Positions 79-56,165 of a stretch of DNA of 64,000 nt are shown piece by piece. The notes beneath the pieces were generated by a model. That model did not search any database, had not been told where the DNA came from, and was given only the letters and a program-made list of their open reading frames with translations. The stretch spans positions 310,001 through 374,000 of the forward strand of contig JBBELK010000450.1 in the NCBI GenBank assembly GCA_037783545.1, given 5' to 3'. Within the stretch, counting starts at the first letter, position 1; each line of letters opens with the position of its first letter. Source of the DNA: Henricia sp. BOLD:AAB3569. Lineage: Eukaryota; Echinodermata; Asteroidea; Spinulosida; Echinasteridae. Both the position numbers and the translations under genes were made by a program.

Positions 79-621
79 TAAAGATATACAGTCCGTGCGT
101 TATGGGTGTGGCACCCTCAAAAATAAGGGTTTTTTTTAAATTGATATTTTTCTAGAAACATCAAAGTTATTCGCTTTCAAATGAAACATCAACAACAAAA
201 AATTCGACCAACGTATAGTTATCGAACAATTATACTATCAATATTTCAAATTATTTCAGACCGCCAATAATTCAAGGCATATATTTGTCCAAGTCTGCCC
301 TCCGTACACCGGTGGCCTGTCCAATCTTGTTTCCTCTGTCTCAAAAAGTCTTCCGAGACAGACAAAAAGAGATTTGACAGGCCACTACTAATCCAGAGGG
401 CTCGCTGCACACCGCGGGTCACAGACCAAATACCGAGTGAGACTTGGGCAACCAAGTCAAAAACGGCGCAAAAACGGCCGTACAAAACGGCGTTTTTCAC
501 AGGGTTGCCGATGTCTAAAGTTCAAAGTTTGAGGTTTTCTCGTTAAAATAAAGTAAATGCTTTAAAAATTCGTTCAGAGAAAGAAAAAAAATAATTTGCT
601 GAGAACCACGGACTGTATATC
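79..621. repeat. Candidate short inverted-repeat element
   Basis: AAGATATACAGTCCGTG near 81 recurs as its perfect reverse complement ending at about 621. About 500 bases lie between, with no open frame. It looks like a MITE. Target duplication not resolved. Confidence 0.45.
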
Positions 622-673
622 TTCGCGTCCCTTTTAAAAATTGCCAAAGCATTGTAGTTCCCGATATAATTCG

Positions 674-952
674 TCAATTTACTCCAGAGAGTGAATTATA
701 TGTGCGCGAAGGCTCTGTCACCATAATGTACTGTCCTAGACCAAGGAACAATGAGAAGCAATGAGGGTAGAACGTCTCCCCACTGTGCAGCAAGTCTTTG
801 ATGTAATCCTGGTCATGATTATGAAGGGATAGACCGGCGTGAGAATCATAATCCTTTTCCTGATTGGCAGTCAGTTGATGGTCGATTTTAGGATAATGAT
901 CATGTTTCTTGACTCGTCCAAGGACCCGTACTACATAACTCTCAAGAAAGAG
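674..952 (-). pseudogene. Possible cytoplasmic tail of the polycystin-like protein in a shifted frame
   Basis: A 92-codon open stretch on the minus strand overlaps the end of the S6 reading in another frame and contains ESYVVRVLGRVKKHDHYPK. After S6 this family usually has a basic helical segment, so a one-base shift near 943-950 would join S6 to this tail. The evidence is only the open frame and the basic composition. The alternative is that the protein simply ends at 931. Confidence 0.35.
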
Positions 953-980
953 TTATTTGACACAACTAGAAACATGCATA
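931..980 (-). pseudogene. Polycystin-like gene exon 19, second part (severed rest of S6)
   Basis: Continues exon 19 on the other side of the 981-3592 insertion. In the uninterrupted copy at 20.4-20.7 kb the same bases read on as CMFLVVSNNSFLRVM and a stop (931-933 here), resembling the end of S6 in this family ('mfl.ii..sf..v'). The base pair TA at 979-980 is the target duplication. In this locus the segment can no longer be translated with exon 19. Confidence 0.65.
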
Positions 981-3900
981 CACTCTCAGAATGCTGGTTA
1001 AAATATCACTGGTTAAAAATCAGTTGGTTAAAAATCTCCCAATGTTGGTTAAATTCTCCGAGTTGGGTAATTTTTTCTTTAACCAGGGGTTGGTTAGGAA
1101 ATATTATGCTTTCTGGTTGGGTAAACAGCGGGTTGTGTAAAATATAAGATCAGAGGGCTGTATTTTAACCAACTATGGTTATAATTTACACCCCCCGCAA
1201 AGCGAAAGTTGGTTAAAAAATTCGCCCAACCATGTCACGTGGTGTCCAGTGAAAGCTACCATTGGTTAGTGACTCGATTGTCTGCAGAAAGGCAAGAGCG
1301 ACAAAATGCCCACGCGCGTTCGTTTCGTGTGTGTGTGTGCCTTGTACGTGTAAAACTACCACACAAACGTATATACAGGACTTTGCAAAATTTGCAAAAT
1401 GTAGTGGTGTTTCCGAGCCGAAACGACTAATTTAGGCCTAAGGTAAGTTTTGCCTCGTTAATTGTCTGGTCCGATCGGTGAATGGTGGGGGGACATTTTA
1501 GTGGTTGCTAGCGGTCGGTTTTGGAAACCTTTCTCGAAGATTTAAGCCGATTTCAAAGTGTTATTTTTTACCCGTACGCGCGGGTTGTCACGAGTATAAC
1601 GTTACCTTCACGTTGCATGCAGCGCGCCGTGTGCAGCGAGTGCGGGCCACAAACTACATCACATGTGTACAGTACACCAACTCGCTACGCACGGCCTGTA
1701 TACGTGTAACTTTTTCCCACCACTGGCCCGCCGGGCTGCCCCACCTAAGAGGTAGGGATTATCACTTTTCGAATGACAAATTCTCCACCCGTGGGGCAAA
1801 ATTTGGGTTACAAACTCCCCACCCATGGGCCAAAAGATGCACGTTTTGCTCCCTGTGCGCTGAAAATTTGATTTTCATGCGTTTAAGTCCCACCCTGGGG
1901 CACGGAAATCGTCGGACCAAATCCCCACCTAAGGGGTGGGGCATCGCAGGGTGGAGTAGCGCGGGGGAGGGATGGGGGCAGTGATAGGTGCATTATTAAT
2001 AATAATAATGAATATTTGTAATGCGCCGGTATCCATCAGAAAGATTATCAGTTGCTATTAGTTTAATAGTAGTATGAATGGATGGGTCACATATAGGCCT
2101 ACCGCCTTTGGATCTTACTATGTTAATACTAGTCCTTGTTTCATTTTGTTTATCCACACAGTGCTGATCGGATCGGATAGGATTTGGCATCTTGGCAGCA
2201 ACTGTTACTCGACAACAACTATGACAGCAGAGGCCAAGGCCATAACCACTCATCATGCACATCACAGTTGATATGACTAGGCTACTGCTAAGCAAGGCTT
2301 CGGCGTGAACCACGTCTTTTTGATCAAAGCTGCATTTTGGCCACTTTTTCGACACAACTACAGGTTGAGTAAAAAAAAAACTATACACTTTTAAAATTAC
2401 TTGTTGTGTTTTAGTGTATCAATATTTATTTGAGATGTTTTGACAACATGTATTTTGGATAAGTTCTCCTGTGTCTTTTGGTAACAGTTTAATTAAATTA
2501 TGTCTCATGCATGACCGCACATGAGGCAAATAAGGGTGTCGGGTGGAACACGACTTGCGCCAATTCAGTATGGCTAGGAAAAAGAAAAGGATTTGAACCA
2601 GTGCAGAGCTGCCATCCGTCCCAGATTTTGCAACAGGTTCTTCGGAAAATAATTAATTTGGTGGTCTCTTTTTTTTTTCTCTTCTGATGTTGGCGCAAGT
2701 CGTGTTCCACCTGACATCCTTATTTGCCTCATGTGCGGTCATGCATGAAACATAATTTAAATGACACAGGAGAACCTATCCAAAATACATGTCAGAACAT
2801 CTCATATAAATATTTGTACACTAAAACACAAAAAGTAATTTAAAAAGTGTATAATAGTTTTTTGTTTACTCACACTGTAGAACGAACTTGCCATTAATTG
2901 TAATTGTAACTCGGAAATTGTTATTTCCTAATCTGAATTTAACCTTTCTTTGGCTGTGTAAACCACAAAAATAAAAGTACGCTCTCTGACTTCATATAGT
3001 GCAGCTGAGCTAAACGTCACACAAGCATTCTCGAACTCATTGTTAACACAGTGTGATGGTGAAACATTTAAAAATGAAAATGTTTGAAGGAAGCCAAACA
3101 CTTTCATTTAGAAAATACCAGTATATATTTGGCCTACACCTGCTGCTAAAGTACATACATGTACATCAAATATCACAAAATAAAAAAAATAAAACAATGT
3201 AAAACTGTCAAGTCCATCGTGTGGTGTTTGCCTTTATTTAGTGTCCTTTATACCCAAATATCTTTTTTATAAACTTTTAACATAATAAATTAACCAACTG
3301 TTGGTAAAATATTGCCCAATTACTGTGAACAGCATTTCAGTAAAATGCCCAACCATTCGGGTATAACCAACTGCATGGTTAAAATTTGCCCAACTCGGCA
3401 TTAACCAACAGATTGGTTAAAATAAAATTAACCAATAATTGGTTAAAAAGTTTAACCAACCACGTATTAAAATTTAACCAACCTGGGTTGGTTAAGGTTT
3501 TAACCAACTGTTGGGATGTTCACCTGGTAATACATGGTTGGTTAAAATTTTAACCAAGTTGGTTAACATTTTTAACCAACGTTCTGAGAGTGTACCTGTA
3601 CAATGCAGAACAAGCTGAAGGTAATAATAGTCAGGGTCTTGGACGATCCGGTGTCAAACTGATTGAAACGGAACTTGCCCAGGAGTGTGATGAGAAGGGT
3701 TTCAGACGTCGAGATAATCGTGCTGTATGTAAACAGAGGCAAAGGGTTAGACATTTCACCAGCCACTGTGAAATCAAACTCAACTGTGCTGTATTTTAAA
3801 GCTCAGCAGTTGTGGACCATATGATTTTTTCTTTAAATGCTCGACGATTAAAAAATCGTTTAATCTTAGACCAATATCACTTTTAGCCAATCAGACCTCA

Positions 3901-6900
3901 ACTTGTTCTACGAGCACATAGGTCAACCCCCCTTTGCGCTTATATCTCTATAGGTGTTATGGCCGAGCGGTCTAGTGCGTCGAACTTAAGTTCCTGTGCT
4001 AGTACTAGAATGTAGGTTCGATTCCTGGCCGGTGACGAGTTGTGGCACCTGTGCCCTTGAGGAAGGCACTCAACTACACTTGCTCCCATTCCTGTAAATG
4101 GCGGTCCCTCCGCTGTTGGATGTGGTATATAAATAAATAAATAAATACCCGCCCCCTCTCCGCTCCCCCTATAAGCCTACTGTGTCTGCCCAAGCACGTG
4201 TATAAACCTCTCTGGAGTTGATAAGAATCGATTCCTAGTTAAGAATTGGAATCATGATTTTGTCTTTTAGAGGAATCGATTATCCATGGTGATTCTGGGA
4301 AGTACCCGGTGAATCTGAATGTGTAATAGTGCAGAAATTACAACATTCAATTTGGTGGTGTAAGGCGACGCAGCCGGTACAGTGTGGTGTCCGTTTCCCA
4401 GCACAGCGCGGTAGCCCACGGTACAGCACGGTAGAGCGCGGTACCGATACGGTTACCTCTGCGGTAGATCTAGAGCATAGTAGACGCCGATTTTCAACCG
4501 TACCTCCAGTGTGACTGTAGCCTTAGATTTGGGCGACTCCAGCATTTTCGGAGCCGACTCCGATTCCAAAAAAGAATCGCGATTCCACTCGGGATCGATT
4601 CTATTTTTAGCGGGAAAACATTGAATATACTGAGCGTGTTTAATAGGTAAATGGGCGTGTTTATGTACATGTGTACATCGGCGATACTACTTATCGTGCC
4701 GACGACGACCCACTTATTGGCACCGAATGGTACTAAAATGATGCCAGCCCGTACCACACACACTTTCTTACTAATTGGAAATTATCAGAGGCTAAATATT
4801 CCTACAAAAGTTTTGCCTTCGGAATTGATAGGTAATTTCTGGAAACGGCAAGCTATCACTCTAAATCGAATCTAAATGAAAGGGAATCGATTTCTACTAG
4901 GAATCGATTCCTCAAAAATCTGGAATCGCGATTTCGATTCCTAAAGTGGAATTGATTTTACTCAAGCCTATTCTGCATCGGGTTTGCGAGATATTGTTGC
5001 AATTTTAGTGCCAACTTTTGTTTTAAAATGGAATCGATTCCAATAAATTTGGGATCGCCCGCACCCACCTGTAACCCTTCTGTTGTGTTCCAATCACCAG
5101 GTGGTTGATCCAGACAAACGCGTAGAACACAATGAAGAAGATGATAGCGCAGTGAAACAACTTGAACTTTGCGTCTGAGAGAGTTCTAGTTAAGACCGTG
5201 AATCTTCTATCGAAGCAGAGTATTGCCTGAAGTTTGACCGTAGCAATGAAGGCGATTAGACCCAGCATCAGGGCATAGAGCTCGTCCACAAACACCACCG
5301 CGCGGAAGGTGAAATGGAGGTCTGAAAAACAAGGAAAGACACGGACAGGTAGCGTATCTATTACCAAGGAGGTCTGAGAGAATTTCCCTCGTGGATTTTG
5401 TTCTATATAAATGTTCATAAAATGTTATAAGCGTCCTGAGCACCTTGCGTGGTGGATATGTGCGTTATATAAGACTCCAGCATAATATTTAATTCATACT
5501 AATTGGCGTTGTTTAAACTGAGGAATAAAGAATGTGTATAAGCATGCAGGTCTCGATTAAATTATGGTTGTGGTACGTAGTAATAATCCGTTTTATCAAT
5601 TGGGGAGAAAGGGTGCTCTAAAATATTTCCCAACTTCTGCCGGCGGGGGCGATCAAAAAGCCGGCATGCCATGCGCACAATATTTGGGTCTGGGTGGGTG
5701 TGTGTGTGTGTGTATATATATAGAGGGCAGTATGCCAACTAAGCTGTTTCTTTTCGACTTCTCCTTTCAGGCAAATTGACCTACCATCGTTGGATCGTAT
5801 CTTCACACTCATCGCGTCCACTGCAAACTTCCTGACTGCATAAACAAATACTTGGAAGAGGCTCAGTACAATGGCTACGGCTTCTAGACAGTTGGTGAAG
5901 GACATGAAATAGCGAACTCTTGCCTTCTTGATGTGCTCATACTCGACAAAGGCAAGATGCACAAGCCATAGGAGAAACACGGCGTGTAGGAGCGTGATCA
6001 TTAAGGAGTATAGCTGCGTCCTGTCAGTGACGTCATATAGACGGAGGGTGTGGACATACGATGAAGGGACGCCGGCATTAGACGGTGGAAACTCCAACAC
6101 GTAAGTGATCAATGTGAAGTAATTAGCGTCCGGGTTGTACAGCGTGAACTCGATGAAGACCGTACGGGTTCGCACATCAATCCAGCGGGTGTCTCTAAGG
6201 TAGCGAATCGCGCGGTGTCCATGCTCGGCTGTGATCCCCAAATCGGCTATAAAACCACCACCGCCGTACACTGTCCCCCGAACTCCTATGAATTTACCAG
6301 TGATGGGGTTGGGAGATGGTGTGTACCTCCAGGGGCAGTCTTGGCCATTGTATACCCACATTGGAATGAGTCCATTCTGCCAACTCTCGCCATAGTCTGA
6401 TGTGTCATCGTTGGAGGTGGAATATGCATCGTTACACTTGGATGAAAGTCCATACTCGGTCATCCTCTCCGAAACCACGCACGTTTCTATAAAAAGAATT
6501 GAACCAAAAAGGTTTTAACTGCTTTAAGGTCATACTTTTCATAACTGCTCTCAGGGCAAATTTTACCAACCCTTTGTATATTATTCGCGCAGCCGCTACC
6601 GCCGTCTAAGAACGTTTATTCATTTCACTTTCCAAGTATAGACGAAATTATCATTTAAGACGCGATAAATCAATGTTCCGTATACCAGGCCGAACGCGTA
6701 ACTGTCTGAGCCGAACGGAGCCGACTCTGAAGCCGATAGCCATTCCAACAAACTTCGTCTGTTCCTCTGTAGGCGCTTCTCCGTTGTACAACTCGCTGCC
6801 GTAAAGCGTCGGAAGCAGGACAGTGTCTGTCCAGTCCCAGTAATTATCAAATGTCCTTATCTGCAACAGAGAGAAAAGATGTATCCACCATATTCATTTA

Positions 6901-9900: not shown

Positions 9901-12900
9901 TACTCCCGGTGCGCTGACGGTTTGTTCACCCATAACCACAACATACCCTGTGTGGTTCGGTTGAGCTGCTCGACCATTCAGTCATACATCGGATCTTAGG
10001 ACAAGGCGTAGGCTCTTCTAATGCCAAGAATCAAGCACATCTAGCGTACCACTGTTCTTCGTAAATGTATACACAACACAACTCGACATTATGTACGAAA
10101 TCAGAAATGTTTGGGCTTTCTCTTCACCTCTAGTGATGGAACAAACTATGATGTCATGATAAATTTAACTAATATCTGGACTTTTTGCTCCTGTGGAACC
10201 GGACGGTGAAATGATGTTCATGTACTCACCACACTGTCTCCTATATCCTGTAGTCTTCGATCTCTAGTTTCTCCGCTTTCTCCCACCAAGTCTAAATATA
10301 CCACCGACCGCGTACCGCTGTTCTTGGCGTAACCCGTGTAAACAGACAACATGTAGAAGTACGTGTCATCAGAACTGTTGTCTGCCAATGGATGGGCAGC
10401 CCACTGCAATAAAGGTAAAAGAGAAGATTCCCCGTATTGATACTGAACAGTACAGTACCTCGAATTACTATACTGATGTCAGCCTCAATAGTGCACTTTC
10501 AACAGGCAAGAGCATACGTGTGTTTACTTCTGCGCAAATACAACATCAGTTAAGCACACTTTAGTTGTCAGCTTCCCACTATAATTTACCTTCAGCAAGT
10601 CTTGACGGTCCTTCCACCTCATGACTGGAGCCAATAGCATGGCAAGGCCTATGATGCCGAGTACCACAGCAAATACAGCCGCATTCTCTCCTAAGTTAGT
10701 CTTGGTGAAGACGTAGATGAAATCAATCTTGTTGACGGGACGGACGATGGAAGCAAAGTTCGTGAGGTGATTGCATTGACACACCGTTGCACTGCCCGTG
10801 GACAGTGGGCTGACCTACAAAGTGTACAATACATTTTGACTGAGAGAAAGACTTACGTGTCATCATTGTAAATTACCGTCACTGTGGCAGATTTACCGAA
10901 AGGATTGGCTGTCAACTTTTGAATGGAGAGAAGTCATTAACACTTTTATCCTTCGCATGTGATTTAAGTGTTGTGCAATACAGTGAAAAGATCCTGGAGC
11001 ATTGTTTTGCGGGGGAAAGGTCTTTCCGAGACTTCTACATGTATGTCCGTACTGGTTAATACGTATCTTGATAATCTGGATAAAGTGACTTTGACTTGCT
11101 ATTGCAGCTTTTATGATAACATAAAGTTAGAAGAGGAAGATTGCACGGTCGCCATGGCCACACCCAGACGAGCTTATATACAAGTTCAAGTAAGTTTTGT
11201 CAATGTCCATGTTGTGAGACGCCAGGGTTCGAGATAGCATCAGATAAACAACAGAACTCACCCTACATCCGTTTTGCCTCCAAGTCTCACTTGCTTCGTG
11301 CCAGTACACACAGCTCTGAAAGTGGAACTGGAAGGTCAATTAATACCCTGCTCTGTGTTGAGAATCTTGGAAGTAGACGTGTCCCAGCCCTCCGTGAATT
11401 CACAGTCAGTTTCCACGGTGAGTATACCAAGTGTCTCGTTCAGGCTGTTTCTGAAATCTCTCAAGGAATTGTTAATGGTGTCTTTATCCAAGGAAATTTC
11501 GGTCACTGCCGGTGCGCATGGGTCCTTTTCATCGCTGTCCTGAGTACCATACGCAGACCGAATGGCGTCGCTCAATGCTATATATAGACCACTTGAGACA
11601 TTGCCTTTCAGTTCTTCGCTGAATTCTTTCTGTGAAATGTGAAGCATGTAGCAGAACTTGTTGTTCCCTGATGAAAACTGGACCAAGAGTGCGTTTTGGT
11701 AGGTCTCGTTTGCCGGACGGTATGGCTCCTCTGTTGCCGTGACGTCATCGGGATTGTCTGGCGGATCCGGGCCTGTCGACTCCCGTCCTTGGTGGAAGAT
11801 AATATCGATGGGGTCTGCAGTATCTCTCACCTCGATTTGCTGGTACTCCTCGTCTAGGATGTCTAATGCCTGGACGGCTGAAGATACCCTGTGTCCAAGA
11901 TCGTCTCCCCATACGTAAGGGTTGAATTGGTAGTGACGCGTCTACAAATATGACGATTTTGAAAATTCACAGTCAAACGTGGACCACTCTTTAAGTCAGG
12001 TGGACGAACGTTGGCCAAAATTCGGCTTTCATTTTCTAACCAATACAGCAAAACCTTAATGACAATCTTTGAAATAAATACCAATCTTTTAAACAAAAAT
12101 TAAGCCTCCGGTTCCGTGTACATACTGATTGTGTAATTATGGTTAAAAGAATGCAATTAATACGATTAATATGGTTACATTGGTCAGTTGCGTGTCCATA
12201 TAACACCGAGAGAAAACCTTACCCTCAGCGAAATGGGACTCCTACTTCCACTCCCGGAATCGAATATATCATCAGTCAGCATAGCCGGCAACGTGAAGCC
12301 ATCAACCGACAGGCCAGTCCTTGACGCCTGTAATGCCCTCGTGTGACGTCTGCTAAACAATGGGTCCTTCCATAGGCTGACAGTCAGACCGGCGGCTTGG
12401 AGTCTGAGCAAGCTATCCCCGGAGTAGAGTCGGCGAAGTACGCTGGTTGAGATGTCCCTCTCCACGCGGTCGCACCGAGTCACTACCTCTCTTGTCTGGT
12501 GAGGGGAAGAAAGCAACGTACAAAATGACATTGAAGCGATAATGGAGGCAGCTCCCTATAAGCTTCCTGATCAGATTGAACCGGAATCTGGGACTAAAGG
12601 TACCTTATGAGGCCTCAGCGACGGGAAAGTGTGACACGCTATACCAAAAATATTGTCTAAGTCCTTAATTTAAGACTAAAATCGGCAACTCTGTGGTTGA
12701 ATGGAAGATCGGCAAAGTTGTGATCACATACCCTCCCAACGAAAATCTCAGTCGCCAAATTGGCTGCCACAACCTCCAAAGAATGCCTGATCCCGTTCTA
12801 ATGCCCGATCTTTTCCCCGTTCAAATATGGCACCTATACGACTAAAGCGTGACGTCAGGTACCAGATAAACTGGGTCTGAAAGAAAATCGCCGGTAATCT

Positions 12901-15900
12901 GAAACGTCCATTGCTAAAGCGCAGGGAACACATCCCTGGTTTTAGTGTAGACCCAGGGGGACGTTTTCACTATTCGACACATGGGCAATTACGGAAATTC
13001 AAATTTACACTTCAGAGACTTTGAGGGCTTCTAATGCTTCACGTATTCAAGTCGTTTGATTTTAAACACATGCTCTTCAGGCATCATTGATGGAAGTGTA
13101 ATTCCTGAAAAAAATATTGCAATGCCATTCTCAGTAAGTGTGTAGGGTCCCCAAAACCCTCGGTTTCGGACGTACTCAATGAGTACGTCCGAAACCGAGA
13201 TATTCTTGGATGTACCATGCATATTGAGAGTGACATTGCAATCAGTTTTTCAGGAATTACACTTCCATCAATGATGCTTGAAGAACATGTGTTTAAAATC
13301 AAACAACTTGAATACGTGAAGCATTACAAGCCCTCAAAGTCTCTAAGGTGTAAATTTAAATTTCCGGAATTGCCTACATGTTCAGTTCAAACGTATTGAC
13401 GCCGAAATTGTGACGGAAGGGTGCATCGGTGTTACGACCTATACTAGATGTAGCGATAAGCTACACCTTAAAAAGCAATGTAAATCCTATACATGTACCA
13501 CTGTTAATTCAACCGCGCTGACATTTTCTGCTCCTGTCTTGCCATACACAGCTGCTTGCTGTAGACTACTCACTATAGAGACGATATCTGTAATTTCAAA
13601 GTTCAGACCACCGACGTGTAATTAGTTATTAAGGCTGGGGAATGAACACGTCATGCCAATGACACCAAGGCTGCGTTCGGGCGTGCAGTTCTCGTTACTC
13701 GGGAGTAATGCGTGCGCATTGCACTCGGGTCACATCACGCGAACAGCCGCAGTCCGCGTTCGCGAATGGCAATCAGTGAAGATGGCCGTCTCTTGCCATC
13801 ACTGCACAATAAAATGCCGTTTGATTGCTCACAAGAAACTGAGGAAATACAGGCCGTAAGTCGTGAGAACCTTTGATGCCGTCTAAAACAAACCTTAGTG
13901 AGTTATTGTTTCAGTTATTGAGTTGACACGTTGGGCAAATTCACCAAAAATCCCACCCATATTCCACCATCTTCGTACAAATCACATGACACTTGACAGG
14001 AGTACGAGCTCACTTCCCATTTGTTGGGGAGTAGTGAGAGCATACTCTCACTGACCCGAGTGTCGTTATTCTTGCCGTTCACGCGCGCAGGAGTATAACT
14101 CGTGTTAACACAAGTACACGCCCGAACGCAGCCCAGGAGTTACATATTCCATAGTGACGTTGGTTACTGCAATTAGTTCTATGTGAAACCATACATTTGA
14201 CAGATTAAAAAACAAACGATTACCATTGTGTAAAACTCTTAAACAACAATTAATCCATTTAATAGGCAAGGGCGTGTCTTGTATTACCTCTGGCGACATT
14301 GTTGTACTGTTGCCTGGACATGAACAGGGAGACTCGAATCAAGTTAGCAGTCACGTTCTCCAACGTTTCCACAAGAAGTAACTGGGATACACAGAACAGT
14401 ATAAAGTATTTTGTTATAAAATTATATACTTGTTATAAAATATTTATTTATGTTGCTAAAAATCGAAATGCATTTACATCTATGATACCAAACGCAATAT
14501 TGGGTATGATACCTAATTATCAATAAAAGGAAACAACCAAAGTCTGGTTATTTCACCTATGATACCAATTGCGTGTACCAGATTACGTGGCCATTAAAGG
14601 GACACACCGGCTTTGTTCGGCTATTTTGGGCTCGAAATAGACCCATACATTATTCTGAAGTGCTTTCCAGAGTAAATTAGATAAATCCTGAAAAGACGCC
14701 GTCAAATTTGGCCGCTTTTGAGAATTTTTCAGAAATTCAAGGTCACGTGACTTTTCGGAACCAGATTCTGGTTCCGAAAAGTCACGTGGTCTTGTGAGTT
14801 AGTTGTATTTCCAGCCGTAGAAACCAGCGCGAAGTGTGAGTTGCTTTTGTCATTCGCGGTTGGTTTATCTTCTTGTTGGAAAATAATGTCCTACGAACAC
14901 TATGTACATACCGTATTTTCCAATTTGTATACAAATCTGCCAACAGATTTCATAAGAAAGGTTTCTGGGTGTTGATATGGACGAGAGAATCTCTCAGATT
15001 TTCGTGTCTTCGCTTCGCGTTCGCGGCGATAAATAATATCCGAAGAAAAAACAGCATAGGCCTATTGAGGACGCTAAAGACACCAAAATGTTGCGTTCGA
15101 GTTGCTTCCTCGAGTCAGCGCTGACCTGAGGGATCATGCAAGGTGTGATGAGTCAGGGAAAACAAGAAATCGAGGTTAAACACGTGTCGACCCATATCGA
15201 ACGCCACCTTTACTTATATTAAGTATCCCTTAAGCTTGGAACATCTTTATGGAGGTTGACCTCTGAGTGTATTCAAGTTTTAACCCAAGATGCATACTGA
15301 TGTTCGAGTTTAACGGTATCAGATGCCCTTCGTATTCAGCTGTTCTAAAGACCATAAAATATGGTAACAGCTATCGCGATATGGACTGCTTGCGTATGCT
15401 ACGCGCATGATGTACATGATGCGTATTATATATTTGGCCACCTGGACAACTGAGTACGCCAGACATCCAAGACCGTGACCCCGGGTCTAACCTGTGTTTG
15501 TCCCGTCAACTCATCGGGTTTATTCGCAATCAGGCTCAGGGTGCTCAAAGCTTGTAGCCAAGTCTCTGTGTGTTCCACTTCGACTTGAATTGACCCGTCA
15601 GACCTCTGTAGATTGTTGATCAAATCAGCCAAAGTCTGCGCCATAGCTGTGCGCATCTGTAAAACGCGTGCACAGATGCATGGTCATAAGGTCATTCCTG
15701 AAACTCATTTGCAGTGACGATATGCGATATCGCCTCTACCCAAATTATGTTATGATTATACAAATATAGGCTATTTGGGATAGGGTTCGAGCTTTCACGG
15801 GAGATAAACCTTGATTAGATCCGTGCTAAAAATCATCGCTAACTTGGCGAACAAGCCCACATGTGATAAACAAAGGCACACTTAAAGGCCCTGTAGATGA

Positions 15901-18900
15901 TCTGTTTTTGAGCGATTCTGCGAATAAAACCATTATAAATCAAAAGAAAGACATCAACAAACTCATCCGAAGAAATTTCAGCTTTGTCAAATGTACCGCG
16001 TTTAAAATTAACATGAAAATCCATATATATGCGTTTTCCTGGTCTTGGCGGGGTGTTTCAAATATTTGTTCTCAGTTGATCGGGTACTATATATGTGGCT
16101 TGCGTCATGCACTCTGTGGCGCACATCATATACTGCTTGTGCGCGCGATCCATAAAAATGCATCGCGTTGGAACACGCACACGCAGTACACAGCGCCCAT
16201 GCATTTTGGACTGCGTAGATGCGAACCAAAAATAAGTAAATCGTTTGCAAACGATCTAAATAATTTCATCTTTACGGATTATTTTCTGGTAAAATTATAT
16301 CATTTTGAGCTGAAACATTTCATTGGGTAGTTGCTATTAATTCAATCTTTACTTTCAGAACTTTTCCCCTGTAAACTCGTCGATTACTTTTTGGGGTCAT
16401 TGCATGATACACTGGGCCTTTAACATCTTTCGTCATGAATGGATTTCATTCAACTTTTGGGTTTTAGCTTGCATTGTACATTGCCGGCAGATCGTGTCAA
16501 GTAACTGAATAAAGTACAGAACTCTGCTTACCAGTTTGTTAGCCTCGTTCAAGACAGTTGAAATCGTCATCAATTTGCGCATGATCTGTGACGGATCAGT
16601 GTCACGTGACAAGATTTCAGCCAATCGAAGCGCTGGACTTGTTCCTAGTAGACGATCGAGGTCAGGCAGAGTTGTCTGTTTGGTACAAACGCATAAAACT
16701 GGGGGATATTAGGAAACAAATTATAGGTTTTTCTTGAGTACTGTCTGGACATGTCATCCTCCTTAATTGCGTCTTTATGATTAAGCTGGTACTTTCACAT
16801 TGTAATTAGGTTATAAGGAGATAAATCGGCAGTGGCTAGATATGGTATTAAACCAGATATGCTTTTCTTTTTGATTTGTAAACTTTCTGTGTGTGTTTAC
16901 GCTTCAAAATGAAACTTATTACGAGCTTGACTTACGTACCTGGACTTCTAAATTGACGATTGTATATCCGAAACTTGAGTCAAAGATGTAAGCCCGAACA
17001 CGAAGCAAGTAGCCATTGTCTCTATCACCAACAGGCAGAACCAGGTCACCTGAGCTGCCATTTGTACCGTGATATAGCAATGATTCAATGGCGTCTCCAC
17101 TTCCAAGTATGGTGTAGTAAGAGTAATAAAGTGATTGGTCGACGTCCTCCATGGCTGACCAATCAGAGCATTGTATCTGGAAGATGGTCTCATATGCAAT
17201 ACCTAAACAGAAAACAATCGCGATCCAATGTGTTTGAATGGGCTGGTCTTCAAAATCATGCATGCCGAAATTATATTGTACATTGAAAGTCAAAAGGAAC
17301 AACAACTTAATATATTGTCTTTTGCCATCATTTTCAGAAATAGGGTGATTTGTTGGTATACGGCTGTGCTGTTTCATTCAAAACATTGACATGATTGTTT
17401 AAAGGTATATGCTTGAATAGTTGAAAAAGTTATAAACATTTGTCTAGTTCCCTCTCCCTATACTCTAAATGAAGCTAAAAAATTAACTTTTTTCATGGAT
17501 TTGTGTCTGAAGGGAAATGCAGACAGGTTAGATTGAGTAAACTGGGGCAATATCGGGGGATCTTAACGAATAAATAACGATAATCGCTAACAAAAATGTC
17601 GTACATAAAATCAATTTAGTTTAAGTAACAGCCGATCATTAATCAAGAAAGTTATTTCACGATAATTTAGTGGTTTTCTTTTCGGTGTTTGCCAATCCTA
17701 CATAATGGTTTTAACAGCCTTTTCGACATTACCGGGCAGTACCTACCCGAAGCAGGAGATATAAGACATGTTCCCTGGTTCGGTGCTTGATTGCTCCGTA
17801 GGTACAGGTCGACTTGTCTTGTGAGATATTGGTCCAGTACTGGTGTTGTTACCTCGCAAATCACGCGGTAATCGCGGTTCCGATCGAGAAAGTCCTCCTT
17901 GATTGTGATGGCGCATGAAGTGTGATCTAAAATAGGAAACATGGGGATCCGTCAGTGTGACGTCTGTTGTCATAAAAGTGGCACTATAGCAGAGCGCTGT
18001 AGTCGAGTCTATCCTGGCCAAGAGTCTATCACAAGTCCCTATAGGTCTAGGATTGGAAAATGTACAAACGGGGTTATCTCATTGTGTGATAAACTGTGTA
18101 CGTACTTTCAAGAAATAAGGCGAAGCCACCGTCCTATTTAGGCTTGTTTCTCTACATGGAAACCAGAGTCATAATACAATGTTATTGATGCATTTTATTT
18201 TTGAAAATCCTTAACTACCGCTGTTTATGAGCGACGATTCCCAATTGGGTAGATCTTCGTAGTCGGGCGCATTTTCCTTCTTGATCTGTAGACTCCATCT
18301 GTATGTAAATGGTGTCGCTATTCCGAGCACCGTGGTGTTGACAAGAGCACGTATGGTGATCCGTAGGGATGGTTCAACCACGGCGTTGCAGTTAGATTGG
18401 CATTCGGCGTCTGGAGAGTATTTTAAAGAGACTTGGGTTACGATGTAAAAAGAGGTTACATTTATGTCATAGACGACGGTATATGCAAAGTGTATGCTAA
18501 TTTATAAGTAAACTTTGGAAATTTAGCAAGCTGCAAAGTTTGCTTGGAAAATAACATTGTGTGACCCGCTCTGGAAAAAGGTAGTATAAGTCGCGCAGGA
18601 TAGGTCGAGTTTTTGCGACCATAAGTAAAAATCGGTGACGCTTATTAAAATACCAAAACAATGGAAAACAAAAGGCTTCCTGACGTTCTACGTCAGTTAC
18701 ACTACCATTTCTGTCCGGTTTGGCAGCAAACACAAAGCACCATTATGTTGCATAATCATGACAATGAAGAGACAACCAAGGTAATATGTATGCCAACTTA
18801 CCATCGCAAAACACACTGGCTGCCTCATCTACGCTAGCACAGATATACTGATTGCAAGACTCATATTGTGTTATGTCGCCGCAGTTAAAATGACCTACAT

Positions 18901-21900
18901 TATAAACAAACAAACAAAAAGATAAAAGCGATACAAAGGGAACAAGTATAACTCTAAATCTTCCGTACTCTGGATTTTTCAGTTTAATCAGTAGTCACAG
19001 AACAGTCATATCTAGCGGAAAATACTTCCTAAGCGCACTAAAGGCGTTGCCTCCATATCGTGGTGAAATAAAAATGGCTGCTCAACATTTAATATATACG
19101 ACTGGTGAAACGAACTTTAAGCTTCGGCCATATTTAGAGGTTATTTTCCACTTTGAATTTAGCATGTACTTAGGTCCACTGTTCTAATTCCCCTAAGCTT
19201 GTGCTTTCTGGGATGTTGGAATACTCAAACAATGTATGCTACTTTTACTTTGAACATGACCTCCATATATAAATACATGTGTAATTTGTAACCTGCTGAT
19301 TGGCTAAGTGATGCGCTACAAGCGATGATGAATATGGTTTTACACCTTTATGGGGTACCCGGAAGAATGGTACCCCACAGGGAACAAAGGCGAACAAAGG
19401 TACCCCACAAGTCGGTCTTTGTCTACTTAGTACCCCACAAGGTAAGACCAGTGTTAAGCCCATGGGAAGAGTTTAGACAAATGAAACAATAGAAGGATAA
19501 AGGAAGGAAGGGAGGGTATCAAGAGCGGTACCCCAAGTGTGTAACAATACGGTTGTGTGCTTTTGTACCTGGGTGTCAGGGAACTAAACGGTATCTATCC
19601 CCCCCACCCCCAAAAAAACGCAGTGTAACCAGACTGTGACGTCATGATGTATTATAGGTCTATTGATTCAGGGAACAAGACTGGAAACTGCTACCACTTG
19701 AGTATTATAAAGGCCGTTGTGTTGTATCATCTGCCACTACACCAATTTCATGCATCGCACAATAATAATAATAATGATTAGATTTGTAAGAACTCTGGGT
19801 GCCGCAATAGGGCGACATTTCGGGAAGACTCTCTCCGGGGACCACCGAAATTTCGGCAAGAGTCACTCAAAATGACACCTTATTTGTTTACCCAAAGCTT
19901 CTAAAAATGCTTCCAGACCTAAGAGAATTGGTTCTATAGACCTAATAAAAATGGTTCCCGATTTTAAATATATATATATTAGGGCGACACCAAAATGTCG
20001 CCCTATTGAGCGTGTCGCCCTAATATACCTTTTTTACACACAAATTGTCGCCCTATCCTAGCATCCATACTGTAGTTTTTGTATAGGGCACATATCCACC
20101 CTGCAGGGTGCTCAAGGCGCTGTTACCATTATTACCGCTGCCATCAGGGAATCACCAGAACCATTTCGCTTCAACTAGGTGGCTGCTGGTCAGGCGCACA
20201 ACCCTATCAGCAGTTAGATTGTGGCATTCCCCTTAACAGCTTCCCATATATCGCTTGGGTTGACGAGGCAACTGGGATTAAGTGCCTTGCCCAGGGACAC
20301 AGACACGTTGGTCGAAGTGGGGCTCGAACCCCCAACCTCTGATTGGGAGTCCCGCTTCATACCCACTAGACCACACACGCTCCTAGACCAAGGAACAATG
20401 AGAAGCAATGAGGGTAGAACGTCTCCCCACTGTGCAGCAAGTCTTTGATGTAATCCTGGTCATGATTATGAAGGGATAGACCGGCGTGAGAATCATAATC
20501 TTTTTCCTGATTGGCAGTCAGTTGATGGGCGATTTTAGGATAATGATCATGTTTCTTGACTCGTCCAAGGACCCGTACTACATAACTCTCAAGAAAGAGT
20601 TATTTGACACAACTAGAAACATGCATACCTGTACAATGCAGAACAAGCTGAAGGTAATAATAGTCAGGGTCTTAATATATTGTCTTTTGCCATCATTTTC
20701 AGAAATAGGGTGATTTGTTGGTATACGGCTGTGCTGTTTCATTCAAAACATTGACATGATTGTTTAAAGGTATATGCTTGAATAGTTGAAAAAGTTATAA
20801 ACATTTGTCTATGGGATTAAGTGCCTTGCCCAGGGACACAGACACGTTGGTCGAAGTGGGGCTCGAACCCCCAACCTCTGATTGGGAGTCCCGCTTCAGA
20901 CCACACGCGCTCTCTAAACCAACACCATACGGCAACATTTATGCACATTGGTGCCCCTAGCCCCTCTGTCATGGCCGCCGGTGCAAAGGGTTTATTGCCG
21001 TGTATCATCTGCCATCGAACGAGTGGTGTCATCTCGTAGATCAATACCTTACTGAATAGTTTATGCTCAATGGTGCCCCGCATATATGCACTCATGCAAT
21101 CTCTTTCCATAAAAACAAAGGGCAATAATTAGAAGCACTCGCGCTTCTCCGAATTAAAATTGCATCACATTAAGTGCAATTGTATATGTCTATAATTTAT
21201 GTTATCGTTTTAATACGCAAAGGTCAAGAACAGGGCTGGGTACCAAACGCAGACCTTGGCAGAACTGGCATTTAGGTATAATAATTGGCTCCACCAATAA
21301 AACCTTTGCAGGGCAGCCATCTTAGTGATCTTGCGGGTAATCACTTTGTCACCTTGTGTTATGAATGACGACTATGCACTTTGTGGATCTATTACCACTT
21401 TGTAAAGATGAAAATCTGCCCCAATATGGCCGCCATTGCATTATTCCCATATTCCGCCCTCTGCTGGTGTTTCTAGTTTGTTAACATATTGACGAGCATC
21501 CTTTTAACAGCGCTTTTGTTGTACTGTACTGCATATCATAATATTATTCAATACCCATATACCGAGCAACAAAAGTAATGCAAAATGACAGTCAATCAAA
21601 ATTTGAAAAGTTATTTTGTAAATAAGCCGATATCGAAATATTCACATGACAGCTTCGATCATTGTGCATTACTGCATAAAGATTCGGTGTTTTGAAAATT
21701 TCCACTCTCACATTTAAATCAAAAAGTGGCGAACATTTTGCGTTTCCTTTGCTGGTCGATATATTTAAATGTTTACCCTATTGTTTCCGAATGGATTTCG
21801 TGGTTTAAAGTGGTGATATGTACATGTCTTATAAACGGAAAATGGAGTTAAATGATATACAATGCATTTCCAACGTGCGTTGCTACCATATCCCATAATT

Positions 21901-22489: not shown

Positions 22490-22990
22490 CTTATAATAGT
22501 CTTGGATCTGGAGAAATGCTTATCCGATGTCTGTCAAGCTCAAAAACACACTGATCCGCCGAAAGATCAATATATGGGAAATGAAGCTGCGCGTGCGCAG
22601 ATAGTTTAATGAACTGTGGGCGGGGCAGCAGATGCTTTCGTCAAATGAAACCACGCAACTGTAATACAATTATACGATTGTACTTAGAATAAACGCCGCA
22701 AAGAGTCTGGAAATTAGTTTTCAATTGTCGATATTCTGATTATTTGTGACAGTTTATATACCAAAACAAAACGTATTCATTCCAGTCCACTGCGAATCCC
22801 CCGAGGGTTTCTGACCAAAGTGTTTTCCTATACTTAATTTGTACCATATGTTTTCGCCAATAAAGTCACAATAAAACGCACTACAATAAAGTGCTATTTT
22901 GATATTTAAATCAAAAAGAATAATACCATTTGATTAAGCTCGTTTTCATCCAAAAATGTATCAGAGTATAGGTCAGGATCGTCATCACCT
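22490..22990. other. Presumed promoter side of the polycystin-like gene
   Basis: About 500 bases upstream of exon 1 (minus-strand gene). It has a GC-box-like GGGCGGGGC at 22619-22627 and no convincing TATA box at a fixed distance. The start of transcription cannot be placed from sequence alone. Confidence 0.25.
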
Positions 22991-24864: not shown

Positions 24865-26169
24865 CACTGAAAACATTATCTAGTCAATCACAGTGGAAAA
24901 TTAGTCAAACAAGGGCAAAATGATTAGTCATGTATACAATTTGTCAGTTGACAACTTTTTGTTGGTACATGACAAATCTTTGTTGGTGCATGACAAATTA
25001 AAACTGTTACAGGACAAATTAATATTAGCGGAAGACTAATCTGAACGACTGACAAATGTGATGATCGTCTTTTGACTAATTTGTATTGTCACGTAAAACA
25101 ACAACTGACGATTTATTTTCCCATGACTAATTGCATGACTAACTTTTGATTGCATTACTAATGGCAAGAATAATGCAGCCGAAACTCATGACTAATTTAA
25201 TTAGTCATGAGTTTTGGCGGGATTATTCTTCACATTGATAATGTATTAAAAGGTTAGTCATGAAATCAGTCGTGGGAAAATAAATCTTCAGTTCTTGTTT
25301 TCGTGCAGCTGTGCGACGCCATTACATGCGAACCGCACCGTAAAATGAGGTCGTGTTTGACTGGACTAAACATTTTGTGACGTTACTCTGGAAAGGTAAG
25401 CGTGTGACGGGTTTTGTGTGACACCAACGAATTGTGCGGGACTCTGAGATTTCTAAGGCAATAATTGGTGTGCATGTTTCAAACTATGTCGTGTGTCGGA
25501 GTAAAGACATGGTTGAGGCCGTGCTTCGGGTCTCAACATCCGTGTATTGACACAAATAGTCATGATCTGTATTTTAAGGACAACTCAGTACGTATTCGTA
25601 ATGTTAGGTCAGCCCAGGTTAGACTCCTTTTCTCGCTGCAGTTAGAAGTAGGTTTATAAAATGAGCTACGAATAGTACCTGGATGTTTTCCTGGGTACAT
25701 CGTTGCCTCTTCCATTTTTGTTGTCCCCATTATATCGTCATCAAACTGCGGATGTCTTTGTTGCATTAACACAACACACCGTGCAGTCATTGCACGTATT
25801 CTGCGTAGGCCTATTTCAGTACGTTATACGAAACACACCGTATATTGCACGTGACAAAGTAGGTTTGTCAGGCTGACTAACTGACATTACTAATTAATTT
25901 TACTGCAGGACTAATTTAATTTCCTGCAAGACTAATAATTTTACTGCAGGACTAATAATTTTGTGTGCAAGACTAATTAATTTTGCCGCATGACAAATTA
26001 ATTTTCCCGCATGACTAATCATTTTTTAAATTAGGCAAATAAGACCCTTTTTCATGACTAATTAAAATTAGTCAATTCAAACCACGTATGACTAATTGGA
26101 AATTAGTCAAATAAGACCCAGAGTATGACTAATTTTTTTGTGTCAATTGACGAAATAAAGTTTTCAGTG
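24865..26169. mobile_element. 1.3-kb element with TA duplication and iterated GACTAATT words
   Basis: TA|CACTGAAAAC at the left and GTTTTCAGTG|TA at the right. Both flanks of the element (24880-25270 and 25870-26150) are packed with ATGACTAATT, ATTAGTCATG and GACAAATT words in both orientations. The middle (25280-25860) is unique and has no transposase-like frame. Its design matches the 981-3592 element: CAC start, TA duplication, subterminal word arrays. Confidence 0.75.
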
Positions 26170-26684: not shown

Positions 26685-27050
26685 GATGACGTCACAAAAA
26701 ACTTTTTTTACATTTCAGCGTTTTGGATACCATGTATCGGTGGAGCATGATGAAAAACATCCACAGCCCAAATTTGGTGGGAATCGGTTCAGTGGGGCCC
26801 GAGATATGGCCGCATGAATACATAATTAGCCCCTTTGAAATCAGTGTAAATTGGCCTGGTTCCAAAAGTTACGATCCAGGCCAATTTACACTGATTTCAA
26901 TGGGGATAATTAGGTATTCATGCGGCCATATCTCGGGCCACCATGAACCAATTCATGTCAAATTTTATGTGTGAGGGTTTTTCATCATGTTCTACCGAAA
27001 TATGGTCATGAAAATGCTGAAATGCAAAAAAGAAAATTTGATGACGTCAC
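26685..27050. repeat. 366-bp near-complete palindrome with TGACGTCA ends
   Basis: GATGACGTCAC and its complement bound two arms that pair almost throughout (for example GGCCGCATGAATAC against GTATTCATGCGGCC). The centre at about 26868 is a short loop between GGCCTGG and CCAGGCC. The visible ends contain CRE-like TGACGTCA sites. Confidence 0.82.
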
Positions 27051-42290: not shown

Positions 42291-42324
42291 ATACACGCAT
42301 ATGCGCTAATACGACGACCGGTTG

Positions 42325-42960
42325 TATATAGAAAAGCCGTATTAGGACGACCACCGTCGCTATAGGACGACCGGCTACCAGTCGTTATAACGCAAAGTGC
42401 TCAAAAACCATCTTAATTAGGTCAAAAACCATTTTTTTTAGGTTACTCACCATTTGTATTAGGTTTGTAACCATTTCGGTTTAGGTCGAAAAACGTTTTT
42501 ATGAGAACTTTAAGTCGAGAAAATTGGTGTCAACGGCAGAGTTTCTTGCCGACAAATTTACCGTTTTAGTGGTCCCCCAGAGCACTCTGCCCAAAACGGT
42601 CGTCGTAATGGTGGAAAAACAATTATATATATATTTAAATAACTTCTTTTCCCTGTATAGGACGACCGTTTTGGGCAGAGTGGTCTGGGGGACCAAACGG
42701 TAAATTTGTCGACAAGAAACTCTGCCGTTGACACCCATTTTCTCGACTTAAAGTTCTCATAAAAATGTTTTTCGACCTAGACCGAAATGGTGAGAAACCT
42801 AAAAAGAATGGTGAGAAACCTAATAAAAATGGTTTTTGACCTAAAAATATGGTTTTAGAGGCAAAAAACATTAAGACGACCGGTTTTCGGTCGTCCTAAC
42901 GCGGCCGGTCGTCTTAACAATACCTTTTTTATCCAAAACCGGTCGTCCTATACAGGAAAA
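42325..42960. mobile_element. GACGACCGG word element, two copies head to head
   Basis: The right half (about 42650-42955) matches the single element at 60799-61091. The left half (about 42330-42610) is an inverted copy. GGACGACCG, GACCTAATAAAAATGGT and CGACTTAAAGTTCTCAT blocks are mirrored about an AT-rich centre (42615-42640). Confidence 0.78.
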
Positions 42961-55710: not shown

Positions 55711-55914
55711 GGCACTGGATGGCCCCCAGCTATGGCGGACGTACACGGACCATGACTTTGCAGCTCGGATTGGTGTATACCCGTACCCGAGGAGCCCCGC
55801 GAATGGTAGCACCAAGCAAGACTGTTTTTTCCCCATTGTTTTCATAATAATAATATAAATAACACAAGCATTTATAAAGCGCCATCTATCTATGTAGACA
55901 TATTCCGAGGCGGC

Positions 55915-56165
55915 TGTTGCCATTATTACCGCTGCCATCAGGAAATCACCAGAACCATTTCGCTTCAACTAGGTGGCAACCCGGCCAAGGCGCACAACCC
56001 TATCAGCAGTTAGATTGTGGCATTCCCCATAACAGCTTCCCATATATCGCTTGGGTTGACGAGGCAACTGGGATTAAATGCCTTGCCCAGGGACACAGAC
56101 ACGTTGGTCGAAGTGGGGCTCGAACCCCCAACCTCTGATTGGGAGTTCATACCACTAGACCACAT
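55915..56165 (-). mobile_element. tRNA-Gly-like SINE, copy 2
   Basis: Nearly identical to 20110-20370, including GGGGTTCGAGCCCC on the minus strand and CCCTGGGCAAGGCATTTAAT. It lacks a few bases in the head (GAGTTCATACCACTAG). Confidence 0.8.

Follow-up and report, generated by a model that had tools for sequence, protein, structure and literature searches.

Locus and interrupted exon

The window, i.e., the whole 64,000-nt stretch of DNA that we analyzed, contains a polycystin gene read from the minus strand, one exon of which is split by an inserted element. The recognized parts of this gene, in the order in which it is read, are as follows.

16922 to 17377, minus strand: open frame with a REJ domain match (52.8 bits)
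10527 to 10814, minus strand: open frame with a GPS motif match (27.9 bits)
5786 to 6514, minus strand: open frame matching Polycystin_dom (99 bits) and the start of PKD_channel
5026 to 5424, minus strand: open frame with a PKD_channel match (profile positions 84 to 165; 54.7 bits), the exon upstream of the interrupted one
3595 to 3722, minus strand: portion of the interrupted exon upstream of the insertion, with the pore region and the beginning of S6
931 to 978, minus strand: downstream part of that exon, CMFLVVSNNSFLRVM followed by TAG (C terminus or exon end not settled)

We assign the gene to the polycystin-1-like type because these neighboring frames match PKD_channel, Polycystin_dom, GPS, and REJ; the combination of REJ/GPS/PLAT with polycystin channel domains is thus present on one strand, with PLAT represented by weak matches (15.8 and 18.0 bits, under the cutoff of 23).

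The start of the interrupted exon at 3722 was placed from an acceptor-like AG in the sequence. From near this position the minus strand reads TIISTSETLLITLLGKFRFNQFDTGSSKTLTIITFSLFCIVQV, the host part of the exon ending in SLFCIVQV, and then runs into the element, so that this final V is followed by the element-encoded HSQNVG and a stop; the six element-encoded residues and stop described in the first-pass annotation are therefore as reported. When the two flanks are joined, the frame continues instead through CMFLVVSNNSFLRVM to the TAG. The joined flanks score 21.1 bits against PKD_channel and reach profile position 212, and the exon scores 16.3 bits when cut at V and 16.4 bits with HSQNVG appended, all under the curated Pfam cutoff of 22.4 bits, which this exon alone does not attain even when joined. 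The earlier placement of the insertion in an exon that codes for protein, at the S6 portion of PKD_channel, agrees with these comparisons, and because the similarity continues across the site when the flanks are read together, we take S6 to be truncated. Paralogous exons elsewhere in this genome close S6 with similar residues (e.g., LINMFLTIINEAFK and INMFLTIINEAF).

Beyond S6, a TAG lies 15 codons past the site; a different frame stays open over 92 codons. Placing the tail of the 92-codon frame behind S6 gives 20.3 bits against PKD_channel (versus 21.1 for the read-through), and codon usage, at 0.076 for one frame and 0.086 for the other (control mean, -0.108; SD, 0.097), does not separate them. 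We also considered an ancestral short intron of about 41 nt in the uninterrupted sequence, from CAG/GTATGC to TTCTTGAG/AGT (slashes mark splice junctions), and rejected it: its product, which reads on to SYVVRVLG, scores 15.7 bits as opposed to 21.1. The occurrence of the same TAG in both the gene and the pasted fragment described below, with the other frame open, would suit a gene that had already been disabled by a frameshift or an early stop after S6, so that the transposon struck a pseudogene. However, the exon-sized frames upstream that carry domain matches are open, and paralogues may splice just after S6 (at AAG/GTAGG-like sites), so that the stop may be intronic; we regard a prior pseudogene as quite unlikely.

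Structure of the element

The insertion comprises the following features.

981 to 3592, no strand assigned: element copy, a nonautonomous DNA transposon of 2612 bp, delimited by its ends and the flanking TA
981 to 1003, plus strand: left terminal inverted repeat, CACTCTCAGAATGCTGGTTAAAA
3570 to 3592, minus strand: right terminal inverted repeat, which reads CACTCTCAGAACGTTGGTTAAAA on that strand
979 to 980, no strand assigned: left copy of the TA target duplication
3593 to 3594, no strand assigned: right copy of the TA target duplication
2358 to 2880, no strand assigned: imperfect palindrome in the element core, with about 74% identity between the stretch and its reverse complement

The element is a real repeat and is complete at 981 to 3592. 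Its inverted ends (CACTCTCAGAA.../...TTCTGAGAGTG) form arms that, with the TA included (979 to 1003 and 3570 to 3594), are 25 nt long and 92% complementary, and TA flanks it on both sides, which bears out the earlier description of a transposon insertion with TA duplication. The motif GGTTAA/TTAACC occurs 22 times in it: 7 times within the initial 260 bp, 14 times within the final 330 bp, and once between these parts. No open frame longer than 159 aa was found in 981 to 3592, and six open frames of the element gave no Pfam match at 0.05. On the minus strand, there is an AATAAA-like signal at 3238, about 355 nt into the element. The reverse match of the core palindrome recurs in most of the full-length family copies listed. 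Four other near-palindromic stretches of the window (12979 to 13381, 25090 to 25305, 26687 to 27049, and 42309 to 42951), with 79 to 85% identity to their own reverse complements, resemble foldback or MITE elements.

Repeats of such a kind can in general mislead an assembly, and the join could be an artifact of this sort; yet a complete element with an exact target duplication and an exact element-free fragment would be hard to obtain from a misjoin, and we hold this to be extremely improbable.

A large family with 2-bp target duplications

A DNA search of the same genome returned at least 27 near-full-length matches elsewhere (92 to 97% identity) among the 143 matches listed. When up to 2 mismatches are allowed, the 23-base end pattern is present in the genome at 342 places in the forward and 308 in the reverse direction, and its reversed control at none in either. 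The family is large, high copy, and nonautonomous. For a comparison of copies, we took 40 loci and dropped matches shorter than 2300 bp along with three incomplete copies, leaving 29 complete ones (the window copy and 28 others). All 29 have the outermost bases CACTCT...AGAGTG and a matching 2-bp target duplication, which is TA in 21, CA in 5, and TG in 3. The window copy has 15 private differences from the 28 others in 2597 sites, a count that weakly suggests a recent event and is an upper limit, since the source copy may be unsampled.

Judged by eye from the 25 longest frames, a host coding exon was recognized at 1 of the 29 target sites, namely, the polycystin exon; the longest frames across the 29 empty target sites are mostly retrotransposon-like, again by eye. 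A copy in a kinase-like gene (L017) was examined as a second exon insertion and rejected, as the kinase match stops at KRKQ/V ahead of a CAG/GTAAAT site; about 18 nt of the apparent intron precede the element, and downstream of it comes the next kinase-like exon. Some copies stand end to end: two on contig C799 (L029, G000:C799:47126-55308) are in opposite orientation, with a CA/TG target beside the end of another copy, and two on contig C376 (L004 and L039, G000:C376) are in tandem. Another copy (L052, G000:C4:414100-419220) holds a nested insertion with tandem and inverted repeats.

Affinity of the element

CACTA elements carry short repeats clustered near their ends, and Tc1/mariner elements have a target duplication that is strictly TA. 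The family shares TA with the latter superfamily in the window and at 21 of 29 sites overall, but it differs in its 8 CA or TG duplications (5 CA and 3 TG), and Tc1/mariner therefore does not fit. We provisionally favor CACTA/EnSpm (CMC), which the sequence features fit better: the terminal inverted repeats have the form 5'-CAC...GTG-3', the duplications are of 2 bp in 29 of 29 copies (the range for CMC being 2 to 5 bp, and 2 bp in the animal cases cited next), and the GGTTAA/TTAACC motifs cluster near the ends, with 21 of 22 inside the first 260 or the last 330 bp. In PMC6004678, one CACTA element from Ciona and two elements related to it have CAC...GTG ends and 2-bp duplications, and PMC12730594 gives the CMCT group CA..TG ends and duplications of 2 to 5 bp. 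With CACTA/EnSpm elements (CMC, CMCT), in particular those having 2-bp duplications, among them ENS1_Cis (Ciona savignyi) and the CMC-NA elements (PMC6004678), the window element shares the CAC...GTG ends, the 2-bp duplication, and nonautonomous copies devoid of a transposase. It differs from them in being 2.6 kb long rather than a MITE and in its ends, CACTCTC. A literature search for CACTA elements with 2-bp duplications in sea urchins found nothing relevant.

No transposase with the same ends was found, and there is none inside the element. Inspection by eye of five longer or shorter end pairs (L052 and L060 to L063) found no transposase-like frame, and L060 contains reverse-transcriptase-like frames. 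The genome has 23 matches to PF02992; in the one of these places that was read (L064, G000:C1776:16800-24500), CACTCTCA is absent, and no autonomous partner of the family was found among the end pairs and this place. The same place has a frame of 758 residues that matches Transposase_21 and stands close to long inverted arrays of a AACTCGACCGT-type motif, which suggests another, perhaps autonomous, CACTA family; this frame length recurs at five of the 23 places.

An element-free fragment in a patchwork insertion

Comparison of the window with itself recovered part of the interrupted exon without the element, within a block made of three pieces.

20381 to 20673, minus strand: 293-bp piece of the interrupted exon region, lacking the element
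20671 to 20811, no strand assigned: second pasted piece, 141 bp, 100% identical to 17306 to 17446
20812 to 20922, no strand assigned: third piece, about 90% identical to 20273 to 20391, part of a repeat also found at 55908 to 56164

Positions 734 to 981 match 20381 to 20628 with 2 mismatches in 248 bp, and 3593 to 3640 match 20626 to 20673 in 48 of 48. The uninterrupted GCATACCTGTAC lies at 20623 to 20634, two bases off the 20621 to 20632 of the first-pass annotation, which had seen here the empty site of the insertion; the uninterrupted sequence is indeed present, but it belongs to a 293-bp fragment and not to an intact gene or allele. A second gene or allele was sought and rejected: in an own-genome search with 500 to 978 (best 40 of 2290 candidates scored; 40 matches), only the query itself and the 20381 fragment cover 735 to 978, with no further genomic place matching this interval, and the other 38 matches are parts of window positions 500 to 623, which belong to another repeat. 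A protein search with 43 exon residues likewise found two places, the exon and the fragment.

As a whole, 20273 to 20922 is a patchwork, inside one gene, of three pieces (from the last recognized exon, from 17306 to 17446, and from adjacent repeat sequence), all in direct orientation. The first and second pieces have the 3 bp CTT in common at their joint, and the other joints are not decisive. The block probably lies in an intron, because it falls, by eye, between a signal-peptide-like frame near 22490 to 22356 and the later frames of the gene. The simplest reading of the fragment is a templated multipiece insertion copied from a template that lacked the element, either before the insertion or from an empty homologue. 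The gene and fragment differ at 2 of 296 positions, which weakly points to a recent event; the insertion may also be older, if it was still polymorphic at the time an empty homologue served as template for the fragment. Templated insertions attributed to MMBIR or polymerase theta (compare PMC8421209) similarly string together short copies of nearby sequence, with joints that have little or nothing in common; here, one joint shares 3 bp.

Probable truncation of the polycystin and the possibility of splicing

We think it likely that the locus records an ordinary recent insertion of a nonautonomous CACTA/EnSpm-like transposon, truncating a polycystin-1-like protein in S6, together with a separate templated paste. 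This reading is supported by the element ends, the TA duplication, the reading frame, the family size, the 29 of 29 duplications, the PKD_channel scores, and the upstream domain matches. A transposase acting in trans would have moved the element by cut and paste to a TA in the exon for the pore end and S6, duplicating that TA. The mRNA would then read six codons into the element before the stop, and the transcript may be cleaved at the AATAAA-like signal. The predicted protein would lack the rest of S6 and everything after it, and its pore function would for this reason most likely be lost. In a separate repair or replication event, the 293-bp exon piece would have been pasted from an element-free template into an upstream part of the same gene, and the second piece, from about 3.3 kb away, would have been inserted together with it.

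The first-pass annotation had also allowed that the element might be treated as an intron, and the junctions do supply candidate splice sites. The host G and the duplicated TA form a donor-like CAG/GTACAC, the best match to the U1 consensus (6/9) of the 12 GT sites scanned (3720 to 3541), although it lacks a G at +5. The other inverted end offers CTGAG/AGTG or CCAG/CATTCTGAG as acceptor; among 12 AG sites scanned (1110 to 926), exon openings at 993 and 984 would restore the S6 frame with four extra residues or one (Ser), respectively, and a third, at 940, would lead into the 92-codon frame. Yet any AG has a chance of about one in three of restoring the frame, the pyrimidine tracts of the acceptors are weak (9 to 11 of 17), and the AATAAA-like signal stands 355 nt into the element. 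In PMC9860276, introners recruit 5' splice sites from the target duplication and add codons, and our element resembles them as a nonautonomous DNA element in an exon, where the duplication and the inverted end supply candidate splice sites. It differs in that these sites are putative, its 2.6 kb exceeds the introner medians of 30 to 654 nt given there, and the family has no enrichment in coding exons. Introners have many copies in such exons; here, a host coding exon was recognized by eye at only 1 of 29 target sites, with the kinase-gene copy lying in an intron, and the family therefore does not look like an introner family. Removal of the element as a newborn intron, giving an in-frame mRNA, is thus unlikely in our estimate.

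Implications

As most likely read, the truncating insertion is one mutation caused by a common transposon of a known kind. It nevertheless provides a clean before-and-after pair, in which a single genome gives the family, the 2-bp rule of its target sites, and the exact empty sequence, and the pasted fragment is a record of a multipiece templated insertion inside one gene. There is a small chance that the locus instead holds a newborn in-frame spliceosomal intron in a deuterostome-like animal gene, whose preinsertion sequence survives as a pasted fragment at a distance of 17 kb. Should RNA reveal that the element is removed with the frame intact, the locus would show an animal intron arising from a DNA transposon as an event that can be dated, with the ancestral sequence still present close by.
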